Assembly (NCBI GenBank): GCA_003696725.1
Contig: RFGI01000057.1
Coordinates: 1-38,798, forward strand
Origin: Planctomycetota bacterium
GTDB taxonomy: Bacteria > Planctomycetota > Phycisphaerae > Phycisphaerales > UBA1924
Length of the DNA: 38,798 bases
Direction: 5' to 3'
Shown: positions 4,262-38,635 of the stretch, in pieces
Layout of the letters: every line of letters begins with the position of its first letter
How positions within the stretch are numbered: the stretch's first letter is position 1
Notes under the pieces: generated by a model
Database searches by the model: none
What the model saw: only the letters and a program-made list of their open reading frames with translations
Told to the model about the DNA's origin: nothing
Made by a program: the position numbers and the translations under genes

Positions 4262-5629
4262 ATGACCCAGGAACCGACCCCCGCGCCCGGCCCGACGCCC
4301 GTCTTTGACCCGAGCGACCCCCGGCAGCAGAAACCGAAGTTGCGGCCGGTCCGTGGCTTCCCCGCCCAGCATCAGGATCAGCAGATGCTGGCCCTGGCCG
4401 ACGCCCAGCAGATCTCCGACCGCGTGGTGTTCACGACGCCGGCGGCGCAGGTCGTGCTGCCCCATTTCACCGGGGAGAAGGACCTCGACTCGATCGTCCG
4501 CGAGGTCGGGCAGGGCTTGACCCGGCCGTGGCTGGAGGCGTTCGTCGCCCAGCTCGAGGGCGCCGGGCTGATCGAAGGCAAAACCTTCACGGGCATGCTT
4601 GAGAAGTTGAAGCGGGACTTTGATTCCCGGGACGTCCTGCCGCCGGGCTCGTCGATCGCGTTCGCCGAGGCGATCGCCCAGGAGCACGCCGGGGAGCAAA
4701 CGCTCAGCGAGGAAGAGAAGACCGCGCGGGCGCCGGCGGCGCTGCGGACGCAGTTCGACCACTGGATCGACCAGGCGCTCAAAGACGCGGACGACCCGAG
4801 CCTGGACGACCTGCCGCGCGCGGTCGTGGCCCCGCACCTGGACTACGGGCGTGGGTGGCTGAACTTCGCCCATACCTACGGCCGGCTGCGCGTGGTGGAC
4901 ACGCCCGACCGGGTGATCGTCCTGGGCACGAATCACTTCGGGTTCGGCACGGGCGTCGTGGGGTGCGACAAGGGGTACGAGTCGCCGCTGGGCGTGATGC
5001 CGATGGACGCCGAGTTCAAAGACCGGCTCTGCCGGGCGCTGGGTGAGGAGGACGCCCGCCGGCTCTTCGAGCACCGCTACGACCACGAGCGCGAGCACTC
5101 GATCGAGCTTCAGATCCCCTGGCTCCAGCATGTCTTCGGGGAGGGGGGCGACCCGGCGCCGATGCCGGTGTTCGCCGCCCTCGTCCACGACCCCGCGCGC
5201 AACGCCGGGGAGTCCTACGACGGCGAGGGACTCGGGCTCCTGCCGTTCGTCGAGGGGCTCAAGCAGGCGATCGTGGAGTCGCCGGGGCGGACGCTGATCG
5301 TGGCGAGCGTGGATCTGAGCCACGTCGGCCCGCAGTTCGGGGATCAGGTGAAGATCGCCGATCTAGAAGACGAGGAGGCCACCGCGTTCCGGGAGAAGAC
5401 CATCCAGCACGACCGAGAGATGCTCCAGCTGGTGCTGGACCGCAAGCCGGAGGAACTGGTCGCGTCGATGGCTTGGATGCAAAACCCGACGCGGTGGTGC
5501 AGCGTCGGGGCGCTGGTGGCGACCCTCAAGACGGTCGAGCCGGAGTCGGTGCGGCTGTTGAACTACGCCGCCGCGGTGGACGCCCATGGCGCGGGGATGG
5601 TCTCCGCGTGCGCGATGGCCATGGCGTGA
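4262..5629 (+). CDS. MEMO-family protein (AmmeMemoRadiSam system protein B type) with N-terminal extension
   Basis: A 455-residue protein. Residues about 185-450 are the MEMO1 fold, related to LigB-type dioxygenases, with APHLDYG (His192), LGTNHFG (His225), ASVDLSHVG (His354) and RWCSVGA (Cys413). These match the three His and one Cys that define the MEMO metal site. The first 180 residues are an extra region with a winged-helix or PqqD-like look (LEAFVAQLEGAGLIEG near residue 100), so the protein is much longer than the usual 260-300 residues. The radical-SAM and AMMECR1 partners usual for this system are not next to it. Catalytic activity in this family is unsettled. The start codon follows TAGACT with no Shine-Dalgarno. 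Confidence 0.85.
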   Translation: MTQEPTPAPGPTPVFDPSDPRQQKPKLRPVRGFPAQHQDQQMLALADAQQISDRVVFTTPAAQVVLPHFTGEKDLDSIVREVGQGLTRPWLEAFVAQLEGAGLIEGKTFTGMLEKLKRDFDSRDVLPPGSSIAFAEAIAQEHAGEQTLSEEEKTARAPAALRTQFDHWIDQALKDADDPSLDDLPRAVVAPHLDYGRGWLNFAHTYGRLRVVDTPDRVIVLGTNHFGFGTGVVGCDKGYESPLGVMPMDAEFKDRLCRALGEEDARRLFEHRYDHEREHSIELQIPWLQHVFGEGGDPAPMPVFAALVHDPARNAGESYDGEGLGLLPFVEGLKQAIVESPGRTLIVASVDLSHVGPQFGDQVKIADLEDEEATAFREKTIQHDREMLQLVLDRKPEELVASMAWMQNPTRWCSVGALVATLKTVEPESVRLLNYAAAVDAHGAGMVSACAMAMA

Positions 5630-19348: not shown

Positions 19349-20008
19349 TCAGCGGCGACGCCGGCGGGCGCCGGCGAACGCGGCGCTGACGCCCAGGAGC
19401 GCCAGCGAGCCCGGGCTGGGGATCGGGGGGCCGCCGCCGCCGGTCCCGAAGAGCCGGACCGCGAGCTGATCGGTGGACTCCGGCGTCCAGGCCACGGACA
19501 GGAAGTTCCCGCCCGGCGCCAGCACCCCCGCGCGCTGGGTGAGATTCGTCGTCACGCTGGTGTCGGCCCGGCGGGTGGTGAACCCCGAGCCGCTGGACTC
19601 GATCGCGACGAAGTACTCGCCGGGCGCGCCCAGGAGCGTGTCCGTCAGGTCGAACGAGTGCCACATCGTGGTCCCGGTCGTGCCGATGCTGAATGTTTCG
19701 GAGAGCAACACGTTGAACACGCCCTCGGCCAGCGGGAGCCCATCGGTGATGTGAATCGTGATGTCGCCGCTCATGCTGTTGCCGAGGATCTCGATCGCCT
19801 CGAGGGTCATGGGCCCGTCAACGGTGAACCCCTGGGCGCGGAGGACCGGGCCTTGTGGGATCTCCAGCGAGGTGACGGACGAACCGACCAGCGGGACGTC
19901 TCCCTGGTTATTGACACCGGCGAAGAACATCCCCGCCTGGGCGCCCGACGAGGCGAGGGCCGCGAGCCCGATCGCCGCAGCGGGAACAACAATGGTGCGC
20001 GTGCTCAT
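19349..20008 (-). CDS. secreted PEP-CTERM-like sorting-signal protein
   Basis: A 219-residue exported protein. The signal peptide has core IVVPAAAIGLAALASSGAQA. The mature part is beta-rich and Thr/Ser/Gly-rich (TMTLEAIEILGNSMSGDI-type strands). The tail is IPSPG, then SLALLGVSAAFAGA and RRRRR, the same variant sorting signal as the protein at 2050-2769. GGGAGAG lies about nine bases before the ATG. Upstream is a leader of roughly 135 nt with a hairpin (CACGC/GCGTG, 20071-20086). The two PEP-CTERM-like proteins share little outside the tail. Function unknown, probably surface-attached. Confidence 0.82.
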   Translation of the reverse strand: MSTRTIVVPAAAIGLAALASSGAQAGMFFAGVNNQGDVPLVGSSVTSLEIPQGPVLRAQGFTVDGPMTLEAIEILGNSMSGDITIHITDGLPLAEGVFNVLLSETFSIGTTGTTMWHSFDLTDTLLGAPGEYFVAIESSGSGFTTRRADTSVTTNLTQRAGVLAPGGNFLSVAWTPESTDQLAVRLFGTGGGGPPIPSPGSLALLGVSAAFAGARRRRR

Positions 20009-20150
20009 CTCTGACACTCTCCCTGTGCCCGGCGGTGCAGACAGCGGGATCGCCTCCGCGTTCCGCTCCGCACGCCGATTTGCGTGGCTGACTCTCTTTT
20101 CTCGATCGCGCCGGTGTGCGGCCGGTCGCGATACTCCTGTGCTGGCACTA

Positions 20151-20179
20151 CATCTACCACGACGGCTAAGCCCGGTCAA
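20151..20179 (-). promoter_or_regulatory. sigma70-like promoter of the PEP-CTERM-like gene
   Basis: On the minus strand TTGACC (20179-20174) and TAGATG (20156-20151) are 17 bp apart. This is the one place in the window where a good -35 sits at normal distance from a -10. It predicts a start near 20144 and a 135-nt leader for the gene ending at 19349. Confidence 0.45.
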
Positions 20180-20210
20180 GACTGGACTTAGAGAAAAACC
20201 GAAAAGTTTC

Positions 20211-20588
20211 TCAGGGCCCCCGACGTGTCCCGGCGCGTCCGAGAAGGGCCGCACAGACCAGGCCGACCGCGATCCCGGCAAGGTCCGCGAAGAAGTCGGC
20301 CAGATCGGCGTCGCGGCCGATCCCGGGCAGGGCCTGGGTCAGTTCGTCGACCGCCGCGTACAGCACGGCCGCGAGCGCCAGCCGCCGCCGGGCGCCCGGA
20401 CCGTCGCCGCACCAGCCGGTCAGGCTCAGGAGCACCGTCCAGCAGGCGAAGGCGCCGGCGTGCACGGCCTTGTCCAGGTGTGGGATCGCCGGCCCTCGGA
20501 TCTCGATCCTCGGCCAGTGCGCCGCGACGGCCCAAGCGATCGCGAACCCGACGAACGCGAGCCGCGCTACGGTCCTACGTCCGATCAC
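20211..20588 (-). CDS. VanZ family membrane protein
   Basis: A 125-residue protein with three to four membrane helices and the VanZ-like pattern PHLDKAVHAGAFACW, a Glu-Gln motif (VDELTQALPGIGRDADLADFFADLAG), and a short basic tail. The family includes teicoplanin-resistance VanZ but most members have unknown roles. The ATG at 20588 overlaps the stop of the ParA gene by four bases (ATGA), so it is translationally coupled to that gene. Confidence 0.82.
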   Translation of the reverse strand: MIGRRTVARLAFVGFAIAWAVAAHWPRIEIRGPAIPHLDKAVHAGAFACWTVLLSLTGWCGDGPGARRRLALAAVLYAAVDELTQALPGIGRDADLADFFADLAGIAVGLVCAALLGRAGTRRGP

Positions 20589-21511
20589 GGCGCCGGGCGC
20601 GCGGGCTCGGCCGTGGCGCGCACCACAACGGCCGGCGGTGGGGCGGGCTCGCCCTGCTTGAGCATTTCAAGATGCGCGAGCACGGCGTCGGCGAGGGCCT
20701 GATAATCGCGCGCCCCGGGGGCGCCCTCGGCGTACTCGAAGATGGTCTGTCCGAAGCTCGGCGCCTCGGCAAGTTTGATGTTCCGCCGCACGCCCGGGCG
20801 GAAGACCACCCCGTCGGCCCAAGGCGCGTCGGTCCCGCGCGCCGACTCGAAGAACGCTTCCAAGTCCGCCACGACCTCCCGCCCGTGGGTGGTCTGCTCC
20901 TCGTGCATGCACAGGACCACGCCGGCGACGCGCAGCGACGGGTTCACGCCGTGGCTCATCCGGCGGACGGTCTCGAGCAGCTTGCTCAGGCCCTGCAGCG
21001 CCAGGAACTGCGCCTGCATCGGGACCACTACGGCGGAGGCCGCGGCCAGGGCGTTGAGGGTCAAGAGCCCCAGCGACGGCGGGCAATCCAGGAGGGCCAC
21101 GTCGAACCGGCCGCGCAGGGTGTCCAGGGCCGCCCCCAGCCGGGCCGTCCGCGCGGGCTCGGCGGCGAGCTCGGCCTCGGCGGCGGCGAGGTCCACCTCC
21201 GCCGGCATGAGCCAGAGCCGGTGTCGAGACTCGACCACGGCGTCCGGCGCCCGGTCGGGCTCCAGGAGAGCGTCGTACACCGAGGCGCCCAGGTCCGCCG
21301 GGTCGTGCCCCAGGTGGAGCGTGGCGTGGGCCTGAGGGTCGAGGTCCACCACGAGGACCCGCCGACCGGCCGACGCCATCGCCGCGGCGAGGTTGACCAC
21401 GGTGGTCGTCTTGCCCACGCCGCCTTTTTGATTCATGAAGGCCAGGGTGACGGGCGCACCGCCGGGCGCGGGGGGGTCGTCGGGCCGTCCGTGGTCCGAG
21501 CGTCTGGCCAT
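20585..21511 (-). CDS. ParA/MinD-family ATPase
   Basis: A 308-residue deviant Walker ATPase. MNQKGGVGKTTTVVNLAAAMA (residues 26-46) holds the KGGVGKT P-loop with its signature Lys. VLVVDLDPQAHATLHLG and DVALLDCPPSLGLLTLNAL are the A-prime and B motifs of the ParA/Soj type. The N-terminal 25 residues are an Arg/Pro/Gly-rich extension without a helix-turn-helix. No ParB gene or clear parS site is next to it, so it may position a cargo other than the chromosome. TAGACT ends eight bases before the ATG and there is no Shine-Dalgarno. Confidence 0.93.
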   Translation of the reverse strand: MARRSDHGRPDDPPAPGGAPVTLAFMNQKGGVGKTTTVVNLAAAMASAGRRVLVVDLDPQAHATLHLGHDPADLGASVYDALLEPDRAPDAVVESRHRLWLMPAEVDLAAAEAELAAEPARTARLGAALDTLRGRFDVALLDCPPSLGLLTLNALAAASAVVVPMQAQFLALQGLSKLLETVRRMSHGVNPSLRVAGVVLCMHEEQTTHGREVVADLEAFFESARGTDAPWADGVVFRPGVRRNIKLAEAPSFGQTIFEYAEGAPGARDYQALADAVLAHLEMLKQGEPAPPPAVVVRATAEPARPAP

Positions 21512-21567: not shown

Positions 21568-22461
21568 ATGGCCGGACCGTTCGACGATGAGCATGTCGTG
21601 CCGAGCCGACGCCGAGCGGGGAGCGCCCGGCGGGCGCTCTTGGCGTTGGAGATCGTCGTGGTGTTTATCGCTCTGCCGGGGCTCTACCGGCTGGGCTGGA
21701 TCCCCTTGCCGCTGATCCCCGCGATCCTGGCTCTGGCGGCCGTGGCCGCGGCGCTCCTGCTGACCGACCCCCGGTTCGATCGGCGCCGGCTCGGGCTCCG
21801 CCCGCGTGCGGGGCGAGAATGGCCGCGGATCGTCGTGTTCTTTCTGATCTCAGCGGGGCTGGGCGCGATCGCCGTGGCGCTGATCACGCCCGATCGCCTG
21901 TTGTCGTTCGTGCGCGAGCGCCCGGGCCTGTGGCTCATGGTCATGGCGCTGTACCCGATCTTCTCGGTGTACCCTCAGGAGATCGTGTTCCGGGGCCTCT
22001 TTTTCCACCGCTACCGGCCGCTGTTCCCGAGGCCCTGGGCCCTGATCGGCGTCAGCGCCCTGGTCTTCGGCTGGGTGCACATCGTGATGGGCAACGGGCT
22101 GGCGATCGTGCTGTCGGCGCTGGGCGGGGTGCTCTTCGGGCTGACCTATTTCAGGACGCGGTCCTTGCTGACGGTCGCCGCCGAGCACGCCCTCTACGGC
22201 TGCTTCATCTTCACCGTCGGGCTGGGGCCGTACTTTTATCTCGGGCCGCCGTCGGCGCCGCGACAGCCGCCCGGACAGGCCGCGGTGGGATTCGAACCCA
22301 CGAATGACGGATTTGCAATCCGTTCCCTTAGTCCACTTGGGTACGCGGCCGGGATGTCGGGCGACGCTACGGCCACGCCCGCGGGGGGTCAAGCCGACCG
22401 GCCCGACGCTGGACCGGGCGGGGCCCAGACGCCGATGCTCCCGGCGTCGTCGCCGAGATGA
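21568..22461 (+). CDS. CPBP-family intramembrane metalloprotease, reading through antisense tRNA-Cys
   Basis: A 297-residue membrane protein with about seven helices. The CPBP (CAAX protease/bacteriocin-processing) motifs are PQEIVFRG with Glu138 and Arg142, FGWVHIV with His171, and EHALYGCFIF with His207. The conserved domain ends near residue 225. The frame then has no stop and continues through the tRNA-Cys gene, read antisense as residues 237-261, to a TGA at 22461. The last 60 or so residues are thus probably not under protein selection. The stop overlaps a possible ATG of the next gene, but that gene's better start is at 22485. Confidence 0.85.
   Translation: MAGPFDDEHVVPSRRRAGSARRALLALEIVVVFIALPGLYRLGWIPLPLIPAILALAAVAAALLLTDPRFDRRRLGLRPRAGREWPRIVVFFLISAGLGAIAVALITPDRLLSFVRERPGLWLMVMALYPIFSVYPQEIVFRGLFFHRYRPLFPRPWALIGVSALVFGWVHIVMGNGLAIVLSALGGVLFGLTYFRTRSLLTVAAEHALYGCFIFTVGLGPYFYLGPPSAPRQPPGQAAVGFEPTNDGFAIRSLSPLGYAAGMSGDATATPAGGQADRPDAGPGGAQTPMLPASSPR
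22277..22350 (-). tRNA. tRNA-Cys (anticodon GCA)
   Basis: A 74-nt tRNA on the minus strand. Acceptor GGCCGCG (22350-22344) pairs with CGCGGCC (22284-22278), and the discriminator is T at 22277. The anticodon stem ACGGA/TCCGT encloses TTGCAAA with anticodon GCA. The T-arm reads GTGGGTTCGAATCCCAC. The gene lies wholly inside the CPBP reading frame on the other strand. A minus-strand TAGCGT at 22364-22369 is a plausible -10. CCA is not encoded. Confidence 0.96.
22364..22369 (-). promoter_or_regulatory. putative -10 box (TAGCGT) of tRNA-Cys
   Basis: TAGCGT ends 13 bases before the tRNA 5' end and fits the TANNNT pattern. It lies inside the CPBP reading frame on the opposite strand. Confidence 0.35.
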
Positions 22462-22484: not shown

Positions 22485-23318
22485 ATGCACGCAATCCGAT
22501 GGCGATTCGTTCTGACCGCCGTGCTCTGGGCCGGCTCTCACGCGATGGGGCAGCAGCCGAGCCCGGCCGATCGCGTCGCCCCGCGACTGGCGGGTGGCAG
22601 GCTCTACGAGGGCGCCTTCCTGGCGGACCAGATCGGCCGACTCGCGTCGCTGGATGGGGGCGTGACGGCGGTCCGGTTCGAGCCGGGGCCCGACGGCCGG
22701 GCCGTCCCGCCGATGGCCCTCCTCCCCTGCACCACCCTCCAGCGGATGGAGCAGGTCCGCCATGCCCGTCAGACCGAGCCCCGCTTCCGCGTCTCGGGCC
22801 AGGTCTTCCTCTATAAGGGGCGCAACTATCTGATGCCCACCGCGTACCAGGTCGTCGGCGGGGGATCGGACCAAGCCGATCAAGCCCCACCCGACGATCA
22901 CCCGCCCGGTCGCGAGGCCGACGCGGACCCGTCGGTTGAGGCGCTCGTCGGGGCGATCGAGACCCTGACGCCCGAGAACACGGGCGCCGACGCTCCTGTC
23001 GCCGCCCCGACGGGCGACCTGCTCCCCGACGGCTCGTATCTCCGCCCGCGGACCGGGCTGGTGGGAAGGAGCCTGGAGGGCGCCCTCACGTTCACCATCG
23101 ATAACGATCCGGACGCCGACCCCGCCGGGCCCACGGCGCTGCGGCTCTTGCCCAGCCGGGCTCTGGAGCTGATCGAGTCAATGCTCGGCGAGACGGGCGC
23201 CCCGGCGCGGTTCCTGCTGAGCGGGCGGGTGTTCCAATACCAGGGCCGGAACTATCTCCTGCCGTCGCTGGTGCGCGTGGCGCGGGAGGAGGCCTCGGGG
23301 CTGCGCCCGGGCCGGTAG
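22485..23318 (+). CDS. secreted protein with duplicated RNYLxP module
   Basis: A 277-residue exported protein. The signal peptide is FVLTAVLWAGSHAMGQ, so I place the start at ATG 22485, eight bases after GGGAGG, rather than ATG 22458. It contains two related modules. The first ends RFRVSGQVFLYKGRNYLMP and the second RFLLSGRVFQYQGRNYLLP, each preceded by a segment ending LERMEQ/LELIES-like. A Pro/Asp-rich linker separates them. The duplication suggests two similar binding units, perhaps in the envelope. I recognise no named family. Confidence 0.72.
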   Translation: MHAIRWRFVLTAVLWAGSHAMGQQPSPADRVAPRLAGGRLYEGAFLADQIGRLASLDGGVTAVRFEPGPDGRAVPPMALLPCTTLQRMEQVRHARQTEPRFRVSGQVFLYKGRNYLMPTAYQVVGGGSDQADQAPPDDHPPGREADADPSVEALVGAIETLTPENTGADAPVAAPTGDLLPDGSYLRPRTGLVGRSLEGALTFTIDNDPDADPAGPTALRLLPSRALELIESMLGETGAPARFLLSGRVFQYQGRNYLLPSLVRVAREEASGLRPGR

Positions 23319-38525: not shown

Positions 38526-38635
38526 GGTTGGCGGCCGGGCCCGGTGCGCGGGTGGCCCGTGAACCTGGTCAGAGCCTGACCGCAGCAGCCATAAGCGGCC
38601 GTCATCCGGCGCCGCCGGTGTCCTGGCCGCCAACC
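38526..38635 (+). ncRNA. ffs: signal recognition particle RNA (bacterial small type)
   Basis: A roughly 110-nt hairpin RNA that binds Ffh and helps target membrane proteins. The 5' arm GGTTGGCGGCC (38526-38536) pairs perfectly with GGCCGCCAACC (38625-38635). The core GTGAACCTGGTCAG and AGCAGCCATAAGCGG is the conserved Ffh-binding domain (E. coli has GGTCAG ... AGCAGCC at the same spacing). The apical part differs: the GGAA tetraloop position reads TGAC, closed by a C-C mismatch. Location just upstream of dnaX is the usual bacterial arrangement. The ends are estimated from pairing. Confidence 0.9.

Follow-up and report, generated by a model that had tools for sequence, protein, structure and literature searches.

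A CPBP/Rce1-like protease frame that runs antisense through the tRNA-Cys gene of a GC-rich Phycisphaerales draft genome, probably after loss of its stop codon

In the window (the whole stretch of 38,798 nt analysed here), the reading frame of a CPBP/Rce1-like intramembrane protease carries on through an entire tRNA-Cys gene located on the opposite strand. The most likely explanation, to which we give a probability of roughly 0.88, is that of a convergent protease/tRNA-Cys pair in which the ancestral stop of the protease stood just before the 3' end of the tRNA and was lost, the residues added beyond it being unselected. A run-on of this kind appears to be a commonplace mishap, either of a genome rich in GC or of the way it was assembled. 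The draft assembly from which the window comes totals 2.46 Mb over 215 contigs, the GC content of the window is 72%, and the nearest named relative found is Phycisphaerales bacterium OFTM186, the Phycisphaerales belonging to the Planctomycetota. An earlier note on this DNA had described the frame as open over the whole antisense tRNA, with codons 237-261 lying across it, and as ending 111 bp further on; both the ORF and the tRNA were confirmed, and the coordinates and residue numbers proved correct throughout (Table 1).

Table 1. Location of the protease frame, the tRNA-Cys gene and their neighbours in the window
Feature	Position	Strand	Basis and remarks
CPBP/Rce1-like ORF	21568-22461	+	297 aa; TGA stop at 22459-22461
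CPBP/Rce1-like intramembrane protease, part shared with homologues (residues 1-230)	21568-22257	+	Pfam PF02517; likeness to OFTM186; GC by codon position
Run-on tail (residues 231-297 and stop)	22258-22461	+	Absent in homologues; poor codon score; low pLDDT
tRNA-Cys (GCA), 74 nt	22277-22350	-	ARAGORN; Rfam RF00005, 64.4 bits (cut-off 29)
Probable tRNA-Cys promoter, TTGACC-N17-TAGCGT	22364-22392	-	Comparative motif; under tail residues 266-275
ParA-like ATPase, upstream neighbour	20585-21511	-	PF13614, 172.9 bits; same place in OFTM186 (L061)
Next gene, unknown family	22485-23318	+	49% identical to the syntenic OFTM186 protein

The protein belongs with the CPBP/Rce1-like proteases: the PF02517 domain is found at residues 122-210 with 46 bits, above the curated cut-off of 22.4, and four residues (Q137, R142, H171 and H207) are invariant across 33 sequences. 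It is about 60-65% identical to its OFTM186 counterpart (60% over the length) but falls under the cut-off of each named NCBIfam CPBP subfamily that it matched. For the CPBP sorting proteases, MrtJ gave 22.9 bits against a cut-off of 75 and Mrt_core was not among the matches listed; the OFTM186 protein scored 25.4 against 75 for MrtJ and 20.3 against 100 for Mrt_core (myxosortase core). A PEP-CTERM-like C-terminus was detected on the product of 19349-20281 (minus strand), two genes away from the protease, with a TIGR02595 score of 16.7 bits (cut-off 16, E 0.0093). The OFTM186 counterpart of this product (L061 2809-3462, minus strand), paired by its place and its similar end, had no NCBIfam match. 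In some bacteria, C-terminal tags are described as being sorted by CPBP proteases (PMC11980579).

Eighty loci with CPBP homologues (25 + 35 + 20) were read for tRNAs, drawn from a GTDB contig search (35 loci), from relatives and from the whole GTDB family (163 genomes). A tRNA-Cys adjoins the protease gene in only two of them, L061 and L125, which come from the same genome, OFTM186, and have identical ends; the other 78 have no adjoining tRNA-Cys in flanks of 1.5 to 5 kb or up to the contig end. The gene order in L061 is that of the window, with a ParA gene (minus strand), the CPBP gene (plus), the tRNA-Cys (minus) and then the same gene of unknown family. There the protease ends in FYLAPPGP followed by a TGA (5613-5615) and the tRNA-Cys begins at 5622, leaving a gap of 6 nt. 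The window protease aligns residue by residue with that of OFTM186 as far as GPP and then continues, while the DNA of the two ends aligns poorly around the stop. No relative other than OFTM186 turned up with this gene order, and in this one the stop is kept ahead of the neighbouring gene. The earlier note had allowed for relatives in which the protease would stop before the tRNA; this is what was found in OFTM186, so that the overlap is not conserved there, and a conserved overlap was rejected as an explanation.

The same picture emerges from homologues at large, 70 of 71 distinct ones ending at positions that correspond to residues 226-243 of the window protein (median 230). These 71 are the 80 loci less those with identical ends, and the count retains two homologues with a stop inside the aligned stretch (L019/L087 and L085/L095). 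The window protease is thus longer at its 3' end only, with 297 residues against a median end at 230, and no other frame reaches 297. One homologue, L136, extends to 267 through a 41-residue extension of its own that is unrelated to the window tail. As read from these sequences, homologues as a rule terminate directly behind the last helix, and the window is the exception. A different tRNA recurs beside CPBP genes elsewhere: in three alphaproteobacterial-type MAG loci, a tRNA-Asn is located just upstream of the homologue on the opposite strand (L075 110-184, L079 4594-4668 and L091 4639-4713).

Composition of the tail is consistent with DNA that was not shaped as coding sequence. Residues 231-236 correspond to spacer, 237-261 to the antisense of the tRNA-Cys and 262-297 to the DNA upstream of the tRNA. 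Residues 1-230 have a GC content of 0.68/0.48/0.91 at codon positions one to three, as compared to 0.75/0.78/0.83 in residues 262-297, and codon log-odds, trained on four neighbouring genes, amount to +0.43 bits per codon for residues 1-230 versus -0.28 for 231-297. When residues 262-297 are taken alone, frame 0 is the best of the three forward frames at -0.05 bits per codon, well under the value of the protease. In an alignment of 45 proteins, of which half of the rows were viewed directly and all end positions were determined, the tail is absent from all 44 homologues. In the AlphaFold model, pLDDT exceeds 90 for most of residues 21-220 and drops below 50 at 241-279, where the tail is modelled as disordered; this is weak evidence, since the alignment had no related rows there and low confidence is expected. 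The suggestion in the earlier note that ribosomes would add unselected residues agrees with the lack of clear codon bias, of relatives and of model confidence. Most probably, the tail is not selected as protein and spells antisense tRNA, promoter and spacer. The antisense RNA of the tRNA-Cys folds at -32.4 kcal/mol (z -3.1), which says nothing on function, folding being expected of any sequence complementary to a tRNA.

The tRNA-Cys itself is the sole Cys among the 39 tRNA matches of the genome, all of them typed, and a DNA search with it hit one place in this genome. A second, back-up tRNA-Cys that would make it dispensable was considered and none occurs among these 39 matches. All 74 bases are identical to those of the tRNA-Cys of two other genera (G009 and G013), in which no CPBP match adjoins it; because the same sequence is found there, away from CPBP, the tRNA bears no mark of the overlap. 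The convergent neighbour of the protease is therefore of normal length and sequence.

Upstream of this tRNA, the sequence TTGACC-N17-TAGCGT ends 13 bases before the gene, and OFTM186 has the same hexamers with the same spacing 17 bases before its own tRNA-Cys, with a different spacer sequence. When the 150 bases upstream of each of 31 tRNA-Cys genes are searched, the more general motif TTGACS-N17-TASCGT turns up in 8 of the 31 versus 0.04 expected, the expectation being the rate over all collected loci, a background that includes the matches themselves and some duplicated loci. Outside the window and OFTM186 it is found in 6 of 29 regions; since it was visual inspection of three among the 31 (window, OFTM186 and L096) that first suggested it, the count without these is 5 of 28. 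An upstream region of only 75 bases missed the motif in L096. A sigma-70 consensus scan that needs 9 of 12 matches reported no site, the proposed one matching at 8 of 12. On this comparative basis, the element is probably the promoter of the tRNA-Cys. The OFTM186 tRNA-Cys is 85 nt in length with a long variable region (L061 5622-5706), versus 74 nt in the window. In 20 of 61 genomes, the best match to the window tRNA-Cys is 81-87 bases long, and among these only that of OFTM186 was typed as tRNA-Cys; a single family may contain both forms of this tRNA.

How far a frame would run by chance was estimated in several ways. In simulated sequence at the GC content of the window, a run of at least 66 codons occurred in 33% of 20,000 trials, and 23 of the 63 homologues with a second stop within the retrieved DNA would run on as far if their own stop were lost. 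In 22 of 27 distinct tRNA-Cys sequences, the same antisense frame contains no stop. Within the genome, 17 of the 31 tRNA genes examined are spanned by an ORF of at least 200 codons, 9 of the 31 in antisense, the present case included; in relatives this applies to 16 of 30 tRNA-Cys, with 9 in antisense. Most of these tRNA-spanning ORFs are presumably chance or shadow frames, so that an ORF across a tRNA gene does not by itself carry a signal. The protease and the tRNA are real, and the open frame that joins them is unremarkable.

Phage integrases have a known habit of integration at tRNA genes. When 8 tRNA-spanning ORFs (of 74 listed with at least 120 codons) were run against Pfam, two had a domain and both were phage integrases, one antisense (L103) and one crossing the tRNA-Cys in sense (L122); another real coding gene with its 3' end antisense over a tRNA-Cys was sought among them, and the Pfam-positive cases were these integrases. 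In the genome G011, the integrase ORF (L103 9-1787) runs antisense through the tRNA-Cys and a copy of tRNA-Cys bases 26-74 is located 37.5 kb away on the same contig (C50:31782-31830), which is probably an element integrated at the tRNA-Cys.

Two convergent genes, the protease and the tRNA-Cys, would thus once have been about 6 bases apart, as in OFTM186. Loss of the protease stop would let the frame carry on to the next stop, across the tRNA-Cys and its promoter, and the longer protein, if made, would have a disordered tail past its last helix that is plausibly harmless. Among the three readings offered in the earlier note (a lost stop, a tolerated overlap or a regulatory one), stop loss is well supported by the OFTM186 stop 6 nt before the tRNA and by the 70 of 71 homologues, and nothing was found in favour of regulation. 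The missing stop might instead be a base error in the metagenome assembly, the real gene ending before the tRNA. This is unlikely though a serious candidate: the genome is a 215-contig draft, ahead of the tRNA, a single substitution would turn any of three codons into a stop (CGA at 22261, CAG at 22264 and GGA at 22273), and Palleja, Harrington and Bork (2008) attribute 3' extensions of this type to sequence or prediction errors or to stop-codon mutations (PMC2478687). A frameshift error as the full cause was rejected, since both other frames are open from 22169 to 22305; a lone insertion or deletion is insufficient and therefore only a substitution would serve. We infer that the organism itself carries the changed base, and that it makes and tolerates the longer protein.

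A regulatory overlap, in which antisense RNA from the protease would act against the only tRNA-Cys found in the genome or transcription of the tRNA would limit the protease, appears very improbable from sequence comparison. A scan returned no intrinsic terminator between or around the two genes in the window or in OFTM186, so that transcripts may collide, but this was a simple consensus scan, the adjacency exists in one relative only, in which the coding frame stops short of the tRNA, and the extension has no sign of selection. If this reading were true, a membrane protease would be coupled to the supply of one tRNA, and nothing found points there. Antisense RNA over the tRNA would not be new to the lineage, since with a gap of 6 nt as in OFTM186 any longer 3' end of the protease transcript would enter the tRNA. 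Slightly less probable still is a functional new C-terminal tail: the frame is open for 67 codons past the usual end and L136 also has an extension, but the latter is different, the window tail has its sequence set by the tRNA and its promoter and is shared by none of the aligned homologues, and model confidence is low over most of it, though this is expected without related rows. Just as slim is the chance of a crude switch fixed after the stop loss, whereby passage of RNA polymerase and ribosomes over the only tRNA-Cys gene from the protease side would lower the supply of this tRNA.

Stop loss, the preferred reading, places the case in a described class. Extension of the 3' end by stop-codon mutation or frameshift is class iii of Palleja et al., to which 124 of 178 long convergent overlaps were assigned (PMC2478687). 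The window gene is likewise longer only at its 3' end, with a neighbour of normal length and a frame open to the next stop, but its convergent neighbour is a tRNA gene and not a protein gene; the word "tRNA" is absent from the text of that paper. AntiFam has grown through a search for predicted proteins that overlie tRNAs (PMC9710616; see also PMC3534567), and the window tail similarly translates tRNA antisense, which gives stereotyped peptides; used alone as a query, it hit tRNA-Cys in many genomes of the set. The window ORF as a whole is not spurious, having a genuine PF02517 domain, and only its tail would fit such entries. The case therefore combines both known kinds, a real gene with a tRNA-derived tail, within the known class of 3'-end extension. 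A literature search with narrow terms returned no report of a protein-coding frame extended across a tRNA gene. For annotation, the protein calls for caution beyond residue 230 or so because the rest is antisense tRNA and promoter DNA, and it offers a clean example of how, at 72% GC, one lost stop can take a real gene across a tRNA gene.

Finally, the gene that follows the protease likely starts at 22485 and not at the ATG at 22458 that overlaps the protease stop, a choice resting on an upstream GGGAGG and a signal-peptide-like start, both judged by eye. Translational coupling via the ATGA at 22458-22461 is accordingly doubted; pairwise alignment does not settle the start, since the placement of gaps decides whether that of the OFTM186 counterpart falls on window residue 1 or about 13. 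The gene had no match in Pfam or NCBIfam (Pfam being run on the frame from 22458), and its product holds two copies of a stretch resembling F-x-x-SG-x-VF-x-Y-x-x-x-NYLxP. Further along the window, a bacterial small SRP RNA was detected at 38533-38631 with 46.3 bits.
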